Assembly: GCF_027594865.1 (NCBI RefSeq)
Contig: NZ_CP089391.1
Location: 124,001 to 188,000 of the forward strand
Source of the DNA: Bradyrhizobium xenonodulans
GTDB lineage: Bacteria; Pseudomonadota; Alphaproteobacteria; Rhizobiales; Xanthobacteraceae
Direction of reading: 5' to 3'
DNA: 64,000 nucleotides
Below the pieces are notes generated by a model. That model was not told where the DNA came from. It searched no databases and worked only from the letters and a program-made list of their open reading frames with translations. Each line of letters begins with the position of its first letter. The first letter of the stretch is position 1. The position numbers were made by a program, and so were the translations under genes. Below are positions 6,435 to 14,965 of this stretch, piece after piece.

Positions 6435-7817
6435 TCAGATCGCCGCCAGCATGATGCAGATCATCGCCGCGACCGTGATGCGGCTGGGGCCGTCGCGGAA
6501 GGCGTAGATAATGGGATCGTCGGGCATTTCGCGGCGATGCGCCATCATCAGGGCGCGGCCGAACCAGTAGAGCAGCAGCGGGTTGAGCAGCCACAGCATC
6601 CAGGCCCGGCTGTATAGCGGCATCACCGCTGACGACGAGACATAGAGCGAGAACACGGTCACCGCGTTCATCGCGCTCGCCGCCGCCATCGCGCCGATGA
6701 TGTGCAGATCGGTGACGCGGTAGTCGCGGTTGGAGGGATCGGCGAGGCCCGCGCTCTCGCGCATGCTGAGCTCGCTGAAGCGCTTGATCAGCGCCAGCGA
6801 GGTGAACACGAACAGCGAGAAGATCAGCAGCCATTCCGATAGCACCACGCCGACGGCGACCGCGCCGGCGATGATGCGCAGGCTGTAGAGGCCGGCGAGC
6901 GTGACGACGTCGACCAGCATCTTGCGCTTGAGCACGAGCGAATAGGCGATGGTGGTGGCGAGATAGGCGCCGAGCACGCCGAGGAACAGCGGCGAGATGC
7001 AGAGCGAGGCCACGACCGCGAACAGCCACAGCGCGGGGATTGCGAGCAGTGCGGACGAGATCGGCAAATCGCCTGCCGCGAGCGCGCGGTGACGCTTGGT
7101 CGGGTGCTGCCGGTCGGCTGAGAGATCCAGCAGATCGTTCATCAGATAGGCGCCCGACGCGCAGGCCGAGAACGCCAGGAACGCCAGCAGCGCCGAGCTG
7201 AGCGTCGCAAGATTCATCTGATGCGCGGTGACGGCAGGCACGAACACCAGCGTGTTCTTGGCGTATTGATAGACCCGCAGCGCCTTCGCCCAGGTCTTCA
7301 AGCTAGAGGTCTTCAAACGAGACGTCTTCAGGCTCGCACTGTTGCTGCTGCGACTCTCGATGCGCTCGATGGAGCCACGATCGAACGGCAGCTTGTCGCC
7401 GCCAGCGAGATCGGCCGGCGTCACGACGCCATCAAAACCGAGATGCGCAGCGATGCCCGCGGCATGACCGGCAAAGCGACCGGCAACCAGATAGATCTTC
7501 TCGCCCCGTGCCCGCGCCGCCAGCGCCTGGTTCAGCACATCGGGCTCATAGGGCAGATGGGCGTAGTCGATCTTGGCCTGCGCCAGGATAGCCGTGAGCG
7601 CGGCCATGCCAGGACGTCCGCCCGCGCCGAAGCGGGCCAGCATGCGCCCGGGACTGGAGAACAGCGCTTCCATCAGCAGCTCGGACCGCAGCAGGGCGCC
7701 TTCGAGATCGACGACGAGCGTCCGCGCGGCCGCCACCGTGGCCGACGGGGTGGGCGCGCCAGAATCGTACTGCCGGGCAGGCTGCTCCATCCGAAAACGC
7801 TCTATTGACCGCAACAT
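6435..7817 (-). CDS. UbiA-type decaprenyl-phosphate phosphoribosyltransferase-like protein with decayed HAD domain
   Basis: The C-terminal two thirds (from about residue 178) is a polytopic UbiA transferase. Motif 1 reads NDLLDLSADRQHPTKRHRA (227-245) and motif 2 DVVTLAGLYSLRIIAGA (303-319, Asp303, Arg314). This pattern resembles mycobacterial Rv3806c (prenyl-phosphate + PRPP) and NoeC more than ubiquinone UbiA. The N-terminus resembles a HAD phosphatase, but motif I is DLEGA instead of DxDGT, motif II is VAGR, and the final acidic motif is missing. A linker of SLKTS-type repeats (about 162-175) replaces the missing part. DprE1-like, DprE2-like and uppP genes lie 4-8 kb away, which supports a prenyl-phosphate-pentose role. 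Substrate is inferred. Confidence 0.8.
   Translation of the reverse strand: MLRSIERFRMEQPARQYDSGAPTPSATVAAARTLVVDLEGALLRSELLMEALFSSPGRMLARFGAGGRPGMAALTAILAQAKIDYAHLPYEPDVLNQALAARARGEKIYLVAGRFAGHAAGIAAHLGFDGVVTPADLAGGDKLPFDRGSIERIESRSSNSASLKTSRLKTSSLKTWAKALRVYQYAKNTLVFVPAVTAHQMNLATLSSALLAFLAFSACASGAYLMNDLLDLSADRQHPTKRHRALAAGDLPISSALLAIPALWLFAVVASLCISPLFLGVLGAYLATTIAYSLVLKRKMLVDVVTLAGLYSLRIIAGAVAVGVVLSEWLLIFSLFVFTSLALIKRFSELSMRESAGLADPSNRDYRVTDLHIIGAMAAASAMNAVTVFSLYVSSSAVMPLYSRAWMLWLLNPLLLYWFGRALMMAHRREMPDDPIIYAFRDGPSRITVAAMICIMLAAI
7294..7338 (-). repeat. 15-bp tandem repeat in the linker of the UbiA-family gene
   Basis: Three consecutive 15-bp units all begin GTCTTCA (7294, 7309, 7324). They encode SLKTS, RLKTS and SLKTW in the linker between the HAD-like and membrane domains. 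The unit keeps the frame, consistent with expansion at the site where the HAD domain was shortened. Confidence 0.85.
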
Positions 7818-8066
7818 GACCGGCCCAAGGACGGGGGAGGCCGGGGAGCAGGGAAATGGACGGCCGCGAGCCTAGGGGGCATTCGCTAAGGGCGGCTTAA
7901 TTCGCCGGGACGAGGGGCCGGCTGCCGGGCCGCCAGCTGTTGCCCGGATCCCACAACCCAGCGGGAGCTTCGTGTTCCGCCAGAGCTTTCAGCGTGCGCC
8001 CCGTGAAAACCGCTCCGACCCACCCTATCTGCCAATTTCCCGCCCGCTCACCATGAATCAGGTGCC

Positions 8067-9338
8067 ATGACCGAACAGACGCTCGCCGCGCCTCTCGACG
8101 ACCAGCAGGAACGCCAGCGCGGCTTTTCGCGCTACCAGGCGCTCCTCATTGCGCTGCTCGCGTTCACGCAGTTCACGATCATTCTCGACTTCATCATCAT
8201 GTCGCCGCTCGGCGCCATCCTGATGCCCGCGCTCGACATCACGGCCACCCAATTCGGCATCGCGGTGTCGGCCTACGCGTTCAGCGCGGGACTGTCGGGG
8301 ATCCTCGCGGCCGGCTTTGCCGATCGCTTCGATCGCAAGCGCTTGCTGCTGTTCTTCTATGTCGGCTTCGCGCTCGGCACCCTGCTCTGCGCCGCCGCGC
8401 AGAATTACCATGTGCTGCTGCTCGGCAGGATCGTGACCGGCTTGTTCGGCGGCGTGATCGGCTCGGTCGTGCTGGCCATCATCACCGATCTGTTCCCGCT
8501 GCATCTGCGCGGCCGGGTGATGGGCTTCGTCCAGACCGCGTTCGCTGCCAGCCAGGTGCTCGGCATTCCCGCGGGGCTGTTTCTCGCCAATCACTGGAAC
8601 TGGCATGTCTGCTTCATTGCGATCGTCGGCCTGTCGATCGCCGCGATCGCAATCATCATCTTCGCGATGGAGCCGGTCGACGCGCATCTGAAGCTGAAGC
8701 AGGACAGAAACCCGTTCCACCATCTGATCGCGACGGTCTTCGAGCCGCGCTACACGTTGGCCTTCGCGGTCACGACCCTGCTGGCGACCGGCGGCTACAT
8801 GCTGATGCCGTTCTCCAGCGCCTTCACCGTGAACAATCTCGGCATCGACATTCTGCACCTGCCGACGATCTATCTCGTCTCGGGCCTGTTCAGCATCGTC
8901 ACGGGGCCGCTGGTCGGGAGAGCGAGCGATACGTTCGGCAAATACCCGACCTTCGTGTTCGGCAGCGTGGTGTCGGTGATCATGGTGCTGATCTACACCC
9001 ATCTCGGCCACGTCTCGCTGACCACCGCGATCCTGGTCAACGTGCTGATGTTCGTCGGCATCTTCTCGCGCATGATCCCGTCGCAGGCGCTGATGTCGGC
9101 AATCCCCGACCAGAGCCAGCGCGGCTCGTTCAGCGCGATCAGCGCCTCGCTTCAGCAGCTCTCCGGCGGTCTCGGCTCGATGCTCGCCGGCGCGATCATC
9201 GCGCAGGCGCCGGACGGAACGCTGCTCCATTTCGACCGGATCGGCTACGTCGTCGTCGCCTCTGCGATGGTCTCGCTGGTGGCGATGTATTTCGTGCAGA
9301 GGGCGGTGGCGGAGCGGGCGGGGAGAAGGATGGTGTGA
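8067..9338 (+). CDS. MFS transporter, DHA1-like
   Basis: The 423-residue protein has 12 predicted membrane segments. The MFS motif A after TM2 reads GFADRFDRKRLLL, and a second-half counterpart is GRASDTFGKYPTF. TM5 carries a GIPAGLFLA stretch like the antiporter motif C. DHA1 members are mostly proton-coupled drug, sugar or metabolite exporters, and nothing in the sequence fixes the substrate. The gene stands alone, divergent from the UbiA-family gene across about 250 bp. Export of a product of the neighbouring prenyl-sugar genes is conceivable but unsupported. Confidence 0.85.
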   Translation: MTEQTLAAPLDDQQERQRGFSRYQALLIALLAFTQFTIILDFIIMSPLGAILMPALDITATQFGIAVSAYAFSAGLSGILAAGFADRFDRKRLLLFFYVGFALGTLLCAAAQNYHVLLLGRIVTGLFGGVIGSVVLAIITDLFPLHLRGRVMGFVQTAFAASQVLGIPAGLFLANHWNWHVCFIAIVGLSIAAIAIIIFAMEPVDAHLKLKQDRNPFHHLIATVFEPRYTLAFAVTTLLATGGYMLMPFSSAFTVNNLGIDILHLPTIYLVSGLFSIVTGPLVGRASDTFGKYPTFVFGSVVSVIMVLIYTHLGHVSLTTAILVNVLMFVGIFSRMIPSQALMSAIPDQSQRGSFSAISASLQQLSGGLGSMLAGAIIAQAPDGTLLHFDRIGYVVVASAMVSLVAMYFVQRAVAERAGRRMV

Positions 9339-9616
9339 GGGGGTCGCCCGGCAACGGGCCGCGGCGATGCGGTGATCGCCGCCCTTATTGGGGTAGCGCG
9401 CCGCAGAACGACCGAGCCTACTGGGGTCTGCTTTGGCGGAAGGCCGACATCCGCCGCACCACGAGCAAGGTCTGTCGAGAGCCAACAGCAGAAGTCGGCG
9501 GTTTGCCTATTCAATCACTTCGTCGCCACTGGTCAGCATGTTGATTCAGATCAACGGCCATCCCAATGCTTCGACATCAATTGCCGGATGTCACCTCATC
9601 CCCGCAGGAGACGAGC

Positions 9617-9973
9617 ATGCGCGTGTTGGCAATGGCAGCTCTACTGAGCTTGACGCCGGTTTCGGCTTTCGCTGTCTCCGACTGCCGGGTCACCGGTCAT
9701 CCGTCCGCGTTTGGCGTCGACATGACGGCCTACGTCGCGGTCAGGTCGGGTGAAACGTGCAATTTTCCGATGCGGATTCCAGGAGCGATGCATAGCTCGG
9801 GCGTTTCCCGGAAGCCTGCGCACGGGACGCTCAGGCAGCTGAACGTAACGACGTTCAGGTACACCGCTGCATCCGGATACAAGGGCAACGATACGTTTGC
9901 CATCTATGGTGAAGGAAAAGGTCCGTACGGCTCAGGAAGATCAGTCATGACGGTGAATGCGACGATCGATTAG
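9617..9973 (+). CDS. Small secreted protein with Ig/cadherin-like fold
   Basis: The start is the ATG preceded by GCAGGAGA. This 118-residue protein has a signal peptide of about 19 residues (MRVLAMAALLSLTPVSAFA). The mature part contains KPAHGTLRQLNVTTFRYTAASGYKGNDTFAIYG, a pattern typical of tandem Ig-like bacterial cadherin/VCBS-type repeats. Two cysteines (SDCRV and ETCNF) may form a disulfide. A single such domain is usually structural or adhesive, but the function is unknown. A second small secreted protein follows about 95 bp downstream on the same strand. Confidence 0.75.
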   Translation: MRVLAMAALLSLTPVSAFAVSDCRVTGHPSAFGVDMTAYVAVRSGETCNFPMRIPGAMHSSGVSRKPAHGTLRQLNVTTFRYTAASGYKGNDTFAIYGEGKGPYGSGRSVMTVNATID

Positions 9974-10067
9974 GCGCGAACCCGAACTGCCGAGACCATG
10001 GGTAAGCCCCGATGACCGATTTGAGTCGATCGGCGGATTGCGCAAGCCGCGCGAATCGGAGGATGCG

Positions 10068-10298
10068 ATGCGTTCTGTTTCGGTCCTGTGCCTTGTGATC
10101 ACTCTGTGCGCATCCATTAGCGCCGCCGCGGCGTCTCACTCACATCGCCGACATGCCGTTGTTCGCACGAACCAAAGCGTCGTCGCAGGTACTGTTCCGG
10201 GTTTTGCCCACGCACCGCATAGGCCTCGGATCCCGACCGTTCAGCCAGCGCCACTGGATCGAGCGTATGACAATCGTTATCCGAACTGGGGAATGTAA
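10068..10298 (+). CDS. Small secreted protein, unknown function
   Basis: A good ribosome binding site (CGGAGGA) precedes the ATG. The 76-residue product has a clear signal peptide of about 22 residues (MRSVSVLCLVITLCASISAA). The mature peptide is about 54 residues, basic, and rich in His, Arg and Pro, ending DNRYPNWGM. I recognise no family. It may share a transcript with the secreted protein just upstream. Its short length lowers confidence, but the signal peptide and ribosome site argue for a real gene. Confidence 0.6.
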   Translation: MRSVSVLCLVITLCASISAAAASHSHRRHAVVRTNQSVVAGTVPGFAHAPHRPRIPTVQPAPLDRAYDNRYPNWGM

Positions 10299-10617
10299 GT
10301 CCGTTGGTGACAGCCGCAGCGAGTTGCCATCCTTCTCGTGAGCACACCGGCCATATTCCTGGCGACGGTCACTCGCATTCAGAGGAACCTCAAAGCGCTG
10401 CTGATTTTGGAGCGGGCCGGTTATGTCGTGGTCTTGGTCGCTGCAGCCCTGCTCGGGCCTATCTTCACGCACGAAAGGAGGAAAGCGAGACCCGTCCTGG
10501 CGCATCGGCCGAACAACCCTGAACAGCAATGTTACTCCCCATTGTTGCATAGTGGGGGCCAGCGCAACACACTGAAAGGGCATAACTTCTTGGAATTGCT
10601 TCACATCAAGAAGTTGA
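10299..10617. other. Spacer between small secreted gene and tRNA-Leu, no supported gene
   Basis: Readings exist on both strands, but one runs straight into the tRNA antisense and neither has recognisable domains. A plus-strand stretch starting with GTG at 10338 encodes about 45 residues with one hydrophobic segment (AGYVVVLVAAALLGPIF) and could be the remnant of a gene. I see no promoter or terminator that I can defend. Confidence 0.4.
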
Positions 10618-10704
<87 letters not shown>

Positions 10705-10854
10705 ATGCCGTTTGGGGCACGGAGGCGGTTACTACGGTTCGGTGACGCCGTTGTCAATTCATGCTTGAGCGCTGTTTCGGCTTGCCGATTGCGCATCGCA
10801 AACCGGCCCGATACAAGCCTCGTCAGGCGCACTCTCCTTTAGGAATCGACCCCC

Positions 10855-11820
10855 ATGGCATCGAATCTGGAAACTCTCGTCACGGTTTTCGGCGGATCGG
10901 GGTTTTTGGGCCGGAATGTCGTCCGCGCGCTGTGCCGGCGGGATTACCGGGTCCGGGTCGCGGTGCGGCGGCCGGAACTCGCCGGATACCTCCAGCCCTC
11001 CGGCAAGGTCGGGCAGGTCCACGTCGTGCAGGCCAATCTGCGCTACCCGGCCTCGGTCGAGGCGGCGCTGCGTGATTCGGATGTCGTGATCAACCTGGTC
11101 GGCATCCTCGCCGAGGGCGGCGCGCAGAGCTTTGACGCCGTCCAGGCCAAGGGCGCCGAGACGGTCGCCAGGGCGGCCGCGGCGGCAGGAGCCCGGCTGG
11201 TGCATGTCTCCGCGATCGGCGCCGATGCCGAATCGCCCTCGCGCTACGCCAAGGCCAAGGCGGCAGGCGAAGCCGCGGTACTGGCCGCGGTGCCCTCAGC
11301 CACGATCTTCCGCCCGTCCGTGATGTTCGGCCCCGAGGACCAGTTCACCAACCGTTTTGCCGCGCTGGCGCGGATGTCGCCGGTGCTGCCGCTGATCGGC
11401 GGCGAGACGAAGATGCAGCCGGTCTATGTCGGCGACGTCGCCACCGCGATCGCCGATGCGGTCGACGGCAAGGCCAAAGCCGGCGCCACCTATGAGCTCG
11501 GCGGGCCGGAAGTTCTGACCATGCGCGAGATCATCGAGGCCATCCTCGCCATCGCCGATCGCAAGCCGATGCTGGTGCCGCTGCCGTTCGGGCTCGCCCG
11601 CTTCAAGGCCAACTTCCTGCAATTCGCACCGGGCGCGTTCAAGCTCACGCCGGACCAGGTCACGCTGCTCGAGCGCGACAATGTCGTGTCGGATGCGGCG
11701 AAGGCCGCCGGCCTGACGCTGGAAGGCCTCGGCATTACGGCCGATTCGCTGGAAGCGATCGCCCCGCAATATCTCTGGCGTTTCCGCCCGCAGGGCCAGT
11801 TCCAGCGCAAGAACGCTTGA
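10855..11820 (+). CDS. NDUFA9-like atypical short-chain dehydrogenase (complex I-associated family)
   Basis: The 321-residue protein begins with a Rossmann motif GGSGFLGRNVV (about 13-23). It continues with the NmrA/NDUFA9-type pattern NLVGIL, HVSAIGAD and FRPSVMFGPEDQFTNRF. A YxxxK pattern is present in YAKAK. This group is often annotated as complex I NDUFA9 subunit family or NAD(P)-dependent epimerase. In mitochondria NDUFA9 is an NADPH-binding accessory subunit of complex I. Bacterial members are less defined. It ends next to a palindromic repeat and converges on the DprE2-like gene. Whether it acts with complex I or on a sugar/lipid substrate is not visible. Confidence 0.85.
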   Translation: MASNLETLVTVFGGSGFLGRNVVRALCRRDYRVRVAVRRPELAGYLQPSGKVGQVHVVQANLRYPASVEAALRDSDVVINLVGILAEGGAQSFDAVQAKGAETVARAAAAAGARLVHVSAIGADAESPSRYAKAKAAGEAAVLAAVPSATIFRPSVMFGPEDQFTNRFAALARMSPVLPLIGGETKMQPVYVGDVATAIADAVDGKAKAGATYELGGPEVLTMREIIEAILAIADRKPMLVPLPFGLARFKANFLQFAPGAFKLTPDQVTLLERDNVVSDAAKAAGLTLEGLGITADSLEAIAPQYLWRFRPQGQFQRKNA

Positions 11821-11830
11821 GGCTTGTTCA

Positions 11831-11957
11831 CCTCTCCCGCTTGCGGGAGAGGTCGCCGCGAAGCGGCGGGTGAGGGCTTTCTCCTCATCGGGAGTCTCTC
11901 TGTGGAGAGACCCTCTCCCCTGCCCTCTTCCGCAAGCGGGCGAGGGAGCACACCGTC
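11831..11957. repeat. Palindromic intergenic repeat, family A copy 1
   Basis: It opens with a perfect palindrome (CCTCTCCCGC, TT centre, GCGGGAGAGG). A second stem CGCCGC/GCGGCG follows, and the far end has CTCTTCCGCAAGCGGGCGAGGGAGCA. A copy with the same layout and ends lies at 20112-20238. It sits between two convergent genes. Confidence 0.85.
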
Positions 11958-11982
11958 AGCGCGGCAACAGCCATTTCCTTCG

Positions 11983-12723
11983 TCAAAACTTCAGCTTCTT
12001 GAACACCGCTTCCGGCAGCGTCTTGATGATGAGCATCACGAGACGCCATTTGCCGCTGACATAGACGACATCCGTCTTCTTCTCGACGGCGCTCAGGATC
12101 GCATCGCCGACGACAGGCGCTTCGACGGTGAGCGGACCGATCAGCTTCATGCCTTCCGTCATCTTGGTGCGGACGAAACCAGGTTTTACGGTGACGACGT
12201 GAACGCCGCCGCGACTGGCGCGGGCGCGCAGGCCCGACAGGAAGGCGGAGAAGCCGGCTTTGGCCGAGCCGTAGACATAGTTCGAGGCGCGGCCGCGATC
12301 GCCCGCAACCGACGACACACCGACGATCGTGCCGTTGCCGCGCACCAGAAATTTTTCGGCGAACAGGCCGAGGATCAGTGACGGGCCTTCGTAGTTGGAA
12401 CGCATGATCGTCGTGGCGTGCGCGAAATCGCTCTCGGCATTTTGCTGCACACCGAGCAGGCCGACGATCGAGACGACGACGTCAGGCAATGCCGAAAGAC
12501 CGCCGACAAAGCTCTCGAACGAAGCGGTGTCGAGCGCATCGAATTTGTGGAGGCCGACCTCGATATTGTAGCGCGCGCGCAGATCGGCGGCGTCAGGCTC
12601 CAGCGCGGCGATGTCGCGGCCTGCGAGGCCGACATCGTACCCCGCCTTGGCGAAGGCGCGCGCGGCGGCGCGGCCGATATCAGAGGAGCCACCGAGCACC
12701 AAAACGGTTTTGCGTGACGTCAC
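11983..12723 (-). CDS. dprE2: DprE2-like short-chain reductase (decaprenylphosphoryl-2-keto-pentose reductase family)
   Basis: The 246-residue classical SDR has cofactor motif GGSSDIG (11-17), catalytic Ser137/Ser138 (VSSVAG) and YGSAK (Tyr151, Lys155). In mycobacteria DprE2 reduces the 2-keto intermediate made by DprE1, completing epimerisation of decaprenylphosphoryl-ribose to -arabinose. Three bases separate it from the DprE1-like stop, and it starts with GTG, so the pair is surely cotranscribed. SDR sequence alone would not fix the substrate, and the neighbour does. A lipid-interacting C-terminus is suggested by LVMLIIKTLPEAVFKKLKF. Confidence 0.8.
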   Translation of the reverse strand: MTSRKTVLVLGGSSDIGRAAARAFAKAGYDVGLAGRDIAALEPDAADLRARYNIEVGLHKFDALDTASFESFVGGLSALPDVVVSIVGLLGVQQNAESDFAHATTIMRSNYEGPSLILGLFAEKFLVRGNGTIVGVSSVAGDRGRASNYVYGSAKAGFSAFLSGLRARASRGGVHVVTVKPGFVRTKMTEGMKLIGPLTVEAPVVGDAILSAVEKKTDVVYVSGKWRLVMLIIKTLPEAVFKKLKF

Positions 12724-12726
12724 GGC

Positions 12727-14058
12727 CTAGACCTCATCGAACAGGCGTTGTGAAAGCTTCGAGCGGATGTTGCAGGCAGGATCGAGCGATTTGCGGATCG
12801 CGTTGAAGCGCGACAGAGCGGGATAGCCGGCCTCGAACGTCGCGCGCGACTGGCGCGCATCCTTGGCGAGATAAAGCCGGCCGCCGGCGGCGACGACGAG
12901 ACGATCGATCTCGTCGAGGAAATTCAGGATGTCGCCCTTCAGCGGGAAATCCAGCGCCAGCGTGTAACCGGGCAGCGGGAACGACAAAATGCCGTCACCC
13001 TGGCCGAGCTTCTTGAGCACCGCGAGGAAGGAGGCATCGCCGCGCCTGGAGACGCGGTCGAGGATCTCGCCGAGCACGGCGCGCGCGCCCTGCTCCGGAA
13101 TCACGCATTGATGCTGGAGGAAGCCGCGTCGTCCATAGATGCGATTCCAGTCCGCGATGCTGTCGAGCGGAAAGAAATAGGGATAGAGCGAGACCACGTG
13201 GCTGCCGCCGGCGCGCCGCGCGCCCATGCGGTAATAGAGCTCGTTGAAGGCGCGGATGCTGTATCGGTTCAGCGTCATCGACGGCAGGTCGATGGGCACG
13301 CTGAGGCCGGGATTTTTGCCGGCGGGAAATGCAACGGCATCGCGCGCAAGCTCGTCCTTGCCGGCGTGCTCACCGAGATAGATCAGCGAGCGGCCGAGAT
13401 CACGGCCGCGCGCGGCGCAATCGATCCACGCCACCGAATAGGTCACGGCATCGCCCGCATCGAGCGCGCGCATGGCAGCGTCGAGATCGGATGCGGAGAT
13501 CACGCGCTCGCGGATCCACCCCGTTTCGACCGGCCGCAACCGCATCGTCGCTTCCAGGATCACGCCGGTGAGACCCATGCCGCCGACGGTCGCGAAGAAG
13601 GCATCGGAATTTTGTTCGCGCGAGACCTCGAGGATCTCGCCCTGCCCGGTGCGCAGCAGGATGCTGTCGACATAGCGGCCGAAGCCGCCCTCGCAATGAT
13701 GGTTCTTGCCGTGAACGTCCGCGGCGATGGCGCCGCCGACCGAAACGAAGCGCGTGCCGGGCACGACGAAAGGCAGGAAACCGCGCGGGCCAAACGTGTC
13801 GATCAGGTCCGACAGCAGCACGCCGGCTTCGAGACGGACGCGTCCGGTCGCGGGGTCGAATGACCTGACCCGGTCGAACCCGGTCATCCCAATGGTCCTG
13901 ACGGCGCCGATCGCGGCATCGCCATAGGCGCGGCCGTTGCCCCGCGCCACCGAGCCGGCCATCCCGGCGACAGCTTCGCCGACGGCCTCGAACGACCGTG
14001 GCCGCAGCACATCGCTATCGACGACCGGGAAACGCCCCCAGCCGCTGACGAGGGTCAT
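12727..14058 (-). CDS. dprE1: DprE1-like FAD oxidase (decaprenylphosphoryl-ribose 2'-oxidase family)
   Basis: The 443-residue protein belongs to the vanillyl-alcohol-oxidase fold. The FAD-binding half includes VPGTRFVSVGGAIAADVHGKNHH, with HGKNHH at 116-121, the hallmark also seen in mycobacterial DprE1. The C-terminal half carries FPLPGYTLALDFP and LYLAKD (Lys399, matching the catalytic Lys418 of M. tuberculosis by my alignment from memory). The cysteine attacked by benzothiazinones (Cys387 there) appears to be Ala368 here. It would oxidise the 2'-OH of a prenylphosphoryl pentose. It is immediately followed by the DprE2-like gene and preceded by uppP on the same strand. Confidence 0.85.
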   Translation of the reverse strand: MTLVSGWGRFPVVDSDVLRPRSFEAVGEAVAGMAGSVARGNGRAYGDAAIGAVRTIGMTGFDRVRSFDPATGRVRLEAGVLLSDLIDTFGPRGFLPFVVPGTRFVSVGGAIAADVHGKNHHCEGGFGRYVDSILLRTGQGEILEVSREQNSDAFFATVGGMGLTGVILEATMRLRPVETGWIRERVISASDLDAAMRALDAGDAVTYSVAWIDCAARGRDLGRSLIYLGEHAGKDELARDAVAFPAGKNPGLSVPIDLPSMTLNRYSIRAFNELYYRMGARRAGGSHVVSLYPYFFPLDSIADWNRIYGRRGFLQHQCVIPEQGARAVLGEILDRVSRRGDASFLAVLKKLGQGDGILSFPLPGYTLALDFPLKGDILNFLDEIDRLVVAAGGRLYLAKDARQSRATFEAGYPALSRFNAIRKSLDPACNIRSKLSQRLFDEV

Positions 14059-14158
14059 GGTTCAGCTCCTGTGCGGGGCGCCGCCGCCCTGCTCTGGAAA
14101 CTGCCTACCGATCAAAAGCTTATATTACGTTGAAGCGTATCAGCGAGTTTTTGAGAGG

Positions 14159-14965
14159 TTAACGCCCCAGCGCCAGCGCGATCAGGCCGAGCGTGCCGAC
14201 GATGACGCGCCACCAGGCGAACACCGCAAACCCATGGCGGGTGACGTACCCCAGGAACGTCTTCACCACGATGATCGCGGTGATGAACGACACCACGAAG
14301 CCGATCGCGACGATGCCCATGTGGTCCATCGTCATCTCGGAGCGGTTCTTGTAGAAGTCGTAGGCGAACGCGCCGATCATGGTGGGGATGGCGAGGAAGA
14401 ACGAGAACTCCGCCGCCGCGCGCTTGTCGGCGCCCAGGAACATCGCAGCGACGATGCTGGCGCCGGAGCGCGACACGCCCGGGATCATGGCGACGCACTG
14501 CGCAATGCCGATATAGAGATACATCAGCAGCGGAAATTTGGTGGCGTCATGCTCGCGCGCCTTGAGGTCGAGCCGATCGACCCACAACAGAATGGCGCCG
14601 CCGACGATCAGCGAGAAGCACACCACCCACGGATTGAACAGCATGCTCTTGATGTATTTGCCGGCGACGAGGCCGACGATCACGGCAGGCAGGAACGCCA
14701 CCAGCACGCCGATCACGAAGCGGCGCGCATAGGCGTCGCCCGTGAACATGCCGATCGCCACGTCCCACAATTTCTTGAAATACAACACGACGATCGCGAG
14801 GATCGCGCCGAGCTGGATCAGAACCGTAAACGAATCCCAGAACGCGCCTTCGCCGAGATGGAAGAAGCGCTCCGCGAGCAGAAGGTGGCCGGTCGAGGAC
14901 ACGGGAAGGAACTCGGTCACACCCTCGATGATACCGAGGATCACTGCCCGTATTGCATCTGACAT
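14159..14965 (-). CDS. uppP: Undecaprenyl-diphosphate phosphatase (BacA family)
   Basis: The 268-residue polytopic protein shows both catalytic signatures, EGVTEFLPVSSTGH (about 14-27) and IPGVSRSGAS (about 172-181). UppP recycles C55-PP to the C55-P carrier used for peptidoglycan, O-antigen and other envelope glycans. Confusion with the unrelated peptide transporter also called BacA in rhizobia should be avoided. It lies 100 bp upstream of the DprE1-like gene on the same strand. A supply of polyprenyl phosphate fits the inferred prenyl-sugar pathway. Confidence 0.96.
   Translation of the reverse strand: MSDAIRAVILGIIEGVTEFLPVSSTGHLLLAERFFHLGEGAFWDSFTVLIQLGAILAIVVLYFKKLWDVAIGMFTGDAYARRFVIGVLVAFLPAVIVGLVAGKYIKSMLFNPWVVCFSLIVGGAILLWVDRLDLKAREHDATKFPLLMYLYIGIAQCVAMIPGVSRSGASIVAAMFLGADKRAAAEFSFFLAIPTMIGAFAYDFYKNRSEMTMDHMGIVAIGFVVSFITAIIVVKTFLGYVTRHGFAVFAWWRVIVGTLGLIALALGR

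Follow-up and report, generated by a model that had tools for sequence, protein, structure and literature searches.

What sugar do the UbiA, DprE1 and DprE2 genes of Bradyrhizobium xenonodulans provide, and where does it go? The genes lie within a stretch of 64,000 nucleotides (hereafter “the window”) that spans bases 124001–188000 of the single 8,276,659-base contig of this 8.28 Mb Bradyrhizobium genome. We conclude that the three enzymes probably make polyprenyl-phosphate-D-arabinofuranose, the sugar of which would be moved to an envelope glycan by two membrane proteins encoded far from the set. The donor-pathway part of this reading is well supported. The two membrane proteins, a GT87 protein (from the family to which AftC also belongs) and a 433-amino-acid protein, are likely candidate transferases, predicted from their co-inheritance with the set and from a gene fusion in a relative. 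From gene identities, motifs, co-inheritance and this fusion, all of which are observed, we infer every reaction set out below.

Identity of the three enzymes

The features concerned are as follows:

6435..7790, minus strand: UbiA-family polyprenyl-phosphate phosphoribosyltransferase-like protein, 451 amino acids (family match and alignment to PDB entry 8j8j; start taken from homologues)
7371..7724, minus strand: HAD phosphatase remnant, UbiA residues 23–140 (DLEGA instead of DLDGT; motifs II–IV gone)
7092..7139, minus strand: phosphoribosyl pyrophosphate (PRPP)-binding motif NDLLDLSADRQHPTKR in UbiA (alignment to 8j8j)
6768..6785, minus strand: second UbiA motif, KRFSEL, which is KRYAEL in 8j8j (alignment to 8j8j)
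12727..14058, minus strand: DprE1-like FAD oxidase, 3 bases upstream of dprE2 (family and PDB matches)
11983..12723, minus strand: DprE2-like SDR reductase (family and PDB matches)

The UbiA open reading frame (ORF) extends to 7817; the likelier start is at 7790, where homologues start. The named closest homologues, among the best 120 of 731, are Bradyrhizobium proteins. The protein matches the NCBIfam model PRK08238 with 436.5 bits and the decaprenyl-phosphate phosphoribosyltransferase model with 147.3 bits, against 21.6 bits for heme o synthase. Its best PDB match is 8j8j (6e-27), and the sole strong matches, 8j8j and 8j8k, are both decaprenyl-phosphate phosphoribosyltransferases. Aligned with 8j8j, it retains NDxxDxxADRxHPTKR and KRxxEL, two motifs in which single residues have been tested in Citrobacter ORF15 (PMC11127046). 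The protein is likely a polyprenyl-phosphate phosphoribosyltransferase-like enzyme of the PRPP type, similar to Rv3806c, and PRPP-dependent transfer is predicted.

DprE1 scores 423.5 bits with NF053785, compared with 63.1 bits for the next family. It aligns over its full length with a solved DprE1 (PDB 4aut, 7.6e-86), with HGKNHH and AKD retained, and matches xylitol oxidase weakly (6.4e-8). DprE2 scores 196.8 bits with NF053786, its top family being the unspecific SDR model NF005489 (325 bits); the nearest solved relative is a DprE2 (21gq_C, 2.1e-33), and the next structure follows at 4.6e-19. An initial annotation of the window had named a UbiA protein with the Rv3806c motif pair alongside DprE1-like and DprE2-like proteins, and families, structures and motifs all agree with it. 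On the scores above, UbiA does not group with quinone or heme prenyltransferases, nor does the oxidase cluster with alditol oxidases.

The window DprE1 has an alanine (PGYTLALDFPLK) where Mycobacterium smegmatis DprE1 has the cysteine of PGWNVCVDFPIK. This cysteine is the benzothiazinone target; natural insensitivity is therefore likely.

An accessory gene set

From the best 80 of 584 named loci around rnd, 50 show both insertion sites of the set, and the other 30 were set aside. UbiA is inserted beside rnd, and DprE2-DprE1 between an NDUFA9-like gene and uppP. Of the 50 loci, 14 carry the complete trio and 36 carry none of it, with no mixed cases; the set is therefore accessory. The initial annotation had proposed a general envelope role because of nearby core genes, a proposal that this distribution does not support. 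These core genes include rnd, as found by profile scan, and others assigned by eye from the sequence as hpf, rpoN and lpt genes.

UbiA and DprE1 also occur together more widely. In 199 genomes of the order, DprE1 (E<=1e-35) occurs in 33 and the UbiA family (E<=1e-30) in 57; every one of the 33 DprE1-positive genomes has the UbiA family (Fisher p 1.5e-22, not corrected for kinship), and 24 of the 199 have the UbiA family without DprE1. Window-type DprE1 (at least 79% identity) is carried by 42 of 98 Bradyrhizobium genomes, and another type (57–62%) by 11. Median ratios of nonsynonymous to synonymous substitution (dN/dS) range from 0.136 to 0.172 across DprE2, DprE1 and the UbiA domain; dN/dS of rnd and UppP was calculated from strains with UbiA only.

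Two distant candidate transferases

The initial annotation reported no arabinosyltransferase in the window, and indeed none of the GT87 or PMT_2 matches of the genome lies there, other transferase families not having been searched in the window. Two genes elsewhere in the genome are of interest: one for a GT87 protein (PF09594) at G000:C1:959240-960496, and one for an unannotated membrane protein of 433 amino acids at G000:C1:5051510-5052811. Measured along the contig, ~0.8 and ~4.9 Mb, respectively, separate them from the set.

The 433-amino-acid protein is present in 38 of the 98 Bradyrhizobium genomes, i.e., in 38 of the 42 with window-type DprE1, in none of the 11 with the other type, and in none of the 45 without DprE1. 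For a GT87 relative (at least 49% identity), the corresponding counts are 28 of 42, 9 of 11 and 1 of 45. The supergroup to which the window belongs, defined by PheT identity (at least 91%, the 43 other genomes having at most 88%), comprises 55 genomes. Within it, 42 genomes have the set and 13 do not: the 433-amino-acid protein occurs in 38/42 and 0/13 of these, the GT87 relative in 28/42 and 0/13, and at least one of the two in 42/42 and 0/13 (p 7e-13, not corrected for kinship). Kinship was considered on a 60-row PheT tree, built by a quick method, in which 27 of 57 inner branches are starred and pairs are taken on starred branches. The dpr set changes at least eight times on the best tree. 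Presence of either transfer protein tracks the set in seven of seven independent pairs (sign test p 0.016), and the 433-amino-acid protein on its own goes the same way in 6.8 of 7 on average (median p 0.016). Another GT87 protein of the genome (G000:C1:2508221) served as a control and was ruled out as a partner, since it occurs in 41/42 set-positive and 11/13 set-negative genomes of the supergroup (p 0.14).

Gene order in relatives points the same way. In type-2 loci, those with the second type of DprE1, a GT87 relative stands beside UbiA-DprE1-DprE2, or one gene away, in nine of ten readable stretches; an eleventh was unreadable, and in L244 the gene finder found none of the set. Three of the 80 named loci (L186, L188 and L190) have a relative of the 433-amino-acid protein between UbiA and rnd; at this place, L190 alone has a GT87 relative, and five loci have a DUF6798 protein. 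In L186, L188 and L190, the 433-amino-acid relative adjoins UbiA and the DUF6798 gene. In L190, from B. guangdongense, UbiA, the DUF6798 gene and an ORF of 834 amino acids follow one another, the UbiA stop overlapping the DUF6798 start. Residues 1–384 of the 834-amino-acid ORF are 59.7% identical to the GT87 protein, and residues 422–830 are 58.8% identical to the 433-amino-acid protein. Two DUF6798 homologues carry the UniRef name “RgtA/B/C/D-like glycosyltransferases”. None of 96 DUF6798 matches is assigned to the window’s genome, which was not searched directly, and the protein is therefore probably absent there. Some homologues of the 433-amino-acid protein are named “DUF2029 domain-containing”, DUF2029 being the older name of GT87.

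It is conceivable that the two proteins are inherited together with the set for some reason other than use of the donor, e.g., on shared mobile islands. Correlation alone does not prove donor use, and the 433-amino-acid protein lacks a family assignment. However, the megabase distances in the window’s genome, the position of the 433-amino-acid relative beside UbiA and DUF6798 in three loci, its fusion to GT87 in L190, and the GT87 relatives near the set in type-2 loci all argue against this explanation, which we consider unlikely.

In several Bradyrhizobium genomes, the 433-amino-acid gene forms an adjacent pair of copies (G525:C1:3282615-3285211 and others). In G507, stops in DprE1 coincide with a 433-amino-acid gene in two pieces (C37:19444-20577; C13:343009-344222), as if both were decaying together.

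A proposed pathway

In the pathway that we propose, UbiA would transfer ribose-5-phosphate from PRPP to undecaprenyl phosphate. Some other phosphatase would then take off the 5'-phosphate, leaving polyprenyl-P-ribose; a separate enzyme is proposed because the HAD domain that performs this step in relatives is eroded here. DprE1 would oxidize C2, and DprE2 would reduce it to the arabino form, giving polyprenyl-P-arabinofuranose. Some flippase would turn the lipid over, and the GT87 and 433-amino-acid proteins would act in the periplasm as transferases.

The donor could instead be another pentofuranose, ribose or a derivative, transferred by the same two membrane proteins. Such systems exist: in those of Citrobacter, the sugar is ribose or xylose (PMC11127046), and the 24 genomes of the order with the UbiA family and no DprE1 are compatible with them. 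Here, however, all 14 loci in view that carry UbiA retain DprE1 and DprE2 as well, purifying selection acts on both, and the mycobacterial DprE1/E2 pair yields arabinose (PMC11127046). We regard a different pentofuranose as rather improbable and retain arabinofuranose as the probable product.

Related systems

The closest parallel is the mycobacterial decaprenylphosphoryl-arabinose pathway (Rv3806c, Rv3807c, DprE1, DprE2 and Rv3789). DprE1, DprE2 and the membrane domain of UbiA are homologous to their mycobacterial counterparts and share key motifs with them, and a membrane transferase is expected as the next step. The differences are that the neighbors scanned in the window include no gene for a phosphatase and none of the GtrA type, that its UbiA bears a HAD remnant, and that its set is accessory. 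The Citrobacter ORF15-ORF14-ORF12 system also has a UbiA-type PPPRS with an N-terminal HAD-derived domain, and the Citrobacter three-component systems pair a lipid-linked pentose with a membrane transferase, as predicted here (PMC11127046). They differ in that the HAD motifs are lost from the window protein, DprE1/E2 replace the ORF13 epimerase, the candidate transferases are unlinked to the set, and no flippase is seen beside it (MATE and GT136 families were not searched). The arabinosylation of type IV pilin in Pseudomonas aeruginosa, compared by its description in PMC11127046, involves a UbiA-type PPPRS that depends on a phosphatase separate from it and, unlike the window UbiA, has no HAD-derived domain at all.

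Flippase genes are common in other loci with related genes. Of 36 such loci (L119–L154), 32 show core genes, the gene finder having found none in L120, L126, L142 and L150; UbiA was missed by the gene finder in L127 and placed there by the UbiA family search. UbiA and DprE1 lie within one stretch in 29 of the 32, and a GtrA- or SMR/EamA-like gene stands alongside in 22. Examples come from Rhizobium leguminosarum, Paracoccus and the IRBG74 plasmid (UbiA-GtrA-oxidase-SDR-hypotheticals), and a Rhodococcus ruber locus includes a named galactan 5-O-arabinofuranosyltransferase. No GtrA or SMR relative was found beside the set in the window, L115–L118 or L246–L251 (MATE was not searched). The initial annotation had suggested looking through the whole genome for GT-C arabinosyltransferases and GtrA-like flippases. 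The former, covering the GT87 and PMT_2 families, yielded the GT87 candidate; the latter yielded only a match within a GtrB-GtrA-like fusion. The GtrB-GtrA/ArnT-like cluster (L048) was rejected as a partner, as it looks from its sequences like a hexose system.

In a quick DprE1 tree, the window falls among the Bradyrhizobium rows, and these lie in an alphaproteobacterial group to which the IRBG74 oxidase also belongs. Only one actinobacterial row is included; it branches far from the window, so that, to the extent one row can tell, there is no indication of a recent transfer from actinobacteria. Of the comparison with actinobacterial gene trees that the initial annotation had in mind for all three enzymes, this answers the DprE1 part. 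Its reference to Azorhizobium NoeC-type proteins holds as far as kinship to noeCHOP is concerned, in that the IRBG74 oxidase and the window share a supported group of 31 rows.

This kinship raises the question of whether the set serves Nod factor arabinosylation, as noeCHOP does in Azorhizobium. The noeCNHOP operon has the same three donor enzymes, and the IRBG74 UbiA, equated with NoeC on the basis of gene order, has no HAD-sized domain either. On the IRBG74 plasmid, UbiA, GtrA, FAD oxidase, SDR and hypothetical genes lie in a row near nodA and nodB, and deletion of noeP removes arabinosylated Nod factors (PMC5080398). Unlike noeCNHOP, the window locus is split and sits among core genes, and neither GtrA (NoeN) nor NoeP was found beside the set. 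The window DprE1 groups with Bradyrhizobium, whereas the IRBG74 oxidase pairs with L119 (96*), and no NoeP BLAST match was found in the genome stretches examined, the whole genome not having been searched for NoeP. A role in Nod factor arabinosylation is thus very unlikely, and an envelope glycan remains the preferred acceptor.

Two further operon forms were observed among the other loci. Nine loci (L132, L134, L140, L141, L143–L146 and L152) have UbiA and DprE1, no DprE2 in the stretch, and a class III aminotransferase (PF00202 in L143). Eight of the nine also carry an SMR/EamA-like gene and a GalE-like epimerase, and eight of the nine DprE1 proteins form one supported clade in the quick tree. 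This composition suggests a lipid-linked 2-amino-2-deoxy-pentofuranose, of which no described system was found in a limited literature search. A third form (L130, L131, L133, L135, L136, L138 and L139) combines DprE1-DprE2 with an NAD-epimerase-like gene, mostly with a flavoprotein-like gene (judged from sequence starts), and often with a second GtrA type.

An eroded phosphatase domain on UbiA

At the N-terminus of the window UbiA, DLEGA stands where relatives have DLDGT, and motifs II–IV are lost, as seen in an alignment of which some rows among L087–L109 were wrong-strand ORFs and were not used. On Citrobacter UbiA, the N-terminal HAD phosphatase acts on the transferred ribose-5-phosphate (PMC11127046). 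The motif I pattern is found in 0/26 type-1 loci, 0/1 in the window, 0/6 further type-1 loci and 0/10 type-2 loci. It is kept in 23 of 37 other loci, plus G379; in most of the remaining 14, the sequence ahead of UbiA is too short for a HAD domain. Similarly, the motif IV pattern occurs in 1/27 type-1 loci (window included) versus 21/37 other loci; the motif III pattern was too strict (6/37) and was not used. Judged by eye, five type-2 sequences retain the motif I aspartates and have lost other HAD residues, and a further one, L245, has a nearly intact HAD domain; HAD losses therefore differ between lineages.

The remnant has lost its motifs and is nonetheless under purifying selection. Across 27 type-1 sequences, median dN/dS is 0.20 for the HAD remnant, 0.17 for the UbiA domain and 0.65 for the linker. 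Because the remnant is close to the UbiA domain and far from the linker, we infer that it has probably been retained in a non-catalytic role. The IRBG74 UbiA, with 101 amino acids before the UbiA domain, also has no HAD-sized domain, and this strain is reported to arabinosylate its Nod factors (PMC5080398); a separate phosphatase can thus evidently serve. That the pathway is instead decaying, with the HAD part dead and the rest on its way out, would fit the loss of motif I from all 27 type-1 loci, the set's repeated changes on the PheT tree and the internal stops in DprE1 of G507, but we consider it highly improbable given the low dN/dS of the three enzymes and of the remnant relative to the linker, and given arabinosylation in IRBG74 without a HAD-sized domain (PMC5080398).

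One locus, L120 (G379), belongs to a Bradyrhizobium without DprE1; its HAD-UbiA is of full length and may be part of a system that uses ribose alone.

Neighboring genes

Two neighbors fall outside the set:

14159..14965, minus strand: UppP/BacA, which occurs at 36 sites without the set
8067..9338, plus strand: MFS transporter, which occurs at 10/14 sites with the set and 18/36 without

The initial annotation had counted uppP as a pathway member. UppP adjoins the NDUFA9-like gene at 36 syntenic sites that lack the three genes, and it is ruled out as a member on this ground; the sites were chosen by the presence of NDUFA9 and UppP, meaning that they show the independence of UppP and give no rate. 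The MFS transporter is ruled out by its own distribution.

Weighing the evidence

Several observations weigh against the proposed pathway. First, all three enzymes score below the curated cut-offs of their families (UbiA 147.3/207, DprE1 423.5/500 and DprE2 196.8/250 bits); for DprE1, no match among 241 genomes of the class passes the cut-off. Second, the 433-amino-acid protein has no Pfam match, its 44 homologues have one chance Pfam match only (E 0.055), and its family has no profile match to the GT87 protein. The profile likewise found none of GT87_047, NoeP, an AftB-like protein or DUF6798, the best hit being a Paracoccus GT87 at 15% probability. A structural model of one homologue (P0124) has a mean pLDDT of 61.9 and no Foldseek match at E<=0.001; a model of UbiA (P0001; mean pLDDT 45.1) was not used. 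Third, co-inheritance is imperfect for each transferase candidate: 14/42 set-positive genomes lack the GT87 relative and 4/42 lack the 433-amino-acid protein, and GT87 alone goes the same way as the set in 4.8 of 7 pairs (median p 0.06). Some of the copies counted look damaged: the 433-amino-acid gene is split in two in G507 and G488, the GT87 gene of G526 has one internal stop, and DprE1 of G507 has two. Fourth, if the HAD remnant is dead, the 5'-phosphatase is missing, and no separate GtrA was found in the genome, its sole GtrA match being the one in the fusion. Finally, we know of no arabinose-containing glycan of this strain.

The initial annotation called the system poorly described in this lineage. 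This stands for Bradyrhizobium, in that we found no paper joining Bradyrhizobium and DprE1 in the open-access literature (most subscription journals lie outside it); it does not stand for Gram-negative bacteria, in which the pathway class has already been described (PMC11127046). New beyond that annotation are the HAD remnant on UbiA and the two co-inherited membrane-protein genes. More tentatively, and with appreciable doubt, we suggest that Bradyrhizobium may make an undescribed D-arabinofuranose envelope glycan by means of a scattered, strictly co-inherited set, consisting of a pseudo-phosphatase-fused UbiA, DprE1/DprE2 and two distant transferases. The 433-amino-acid protein might then found a new membrane glycosyltransferase family, and the B. 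guangdongense fusion might be a two-domain arabinosyltransferase.

Discussion of D-arabinofuranose usually concerns the mycobacterial cell wall. In the present case, its donor pathway would be a variable trait in a major group that comprises soil bacteria and symbionts of legumes. Two questions follow from the HAD domain, which is eroded yet under selection: which enzyme takes off the 5'-phosphate, and why the remnant is kept. The two named transferase candidates make the question of the acceptor testable.

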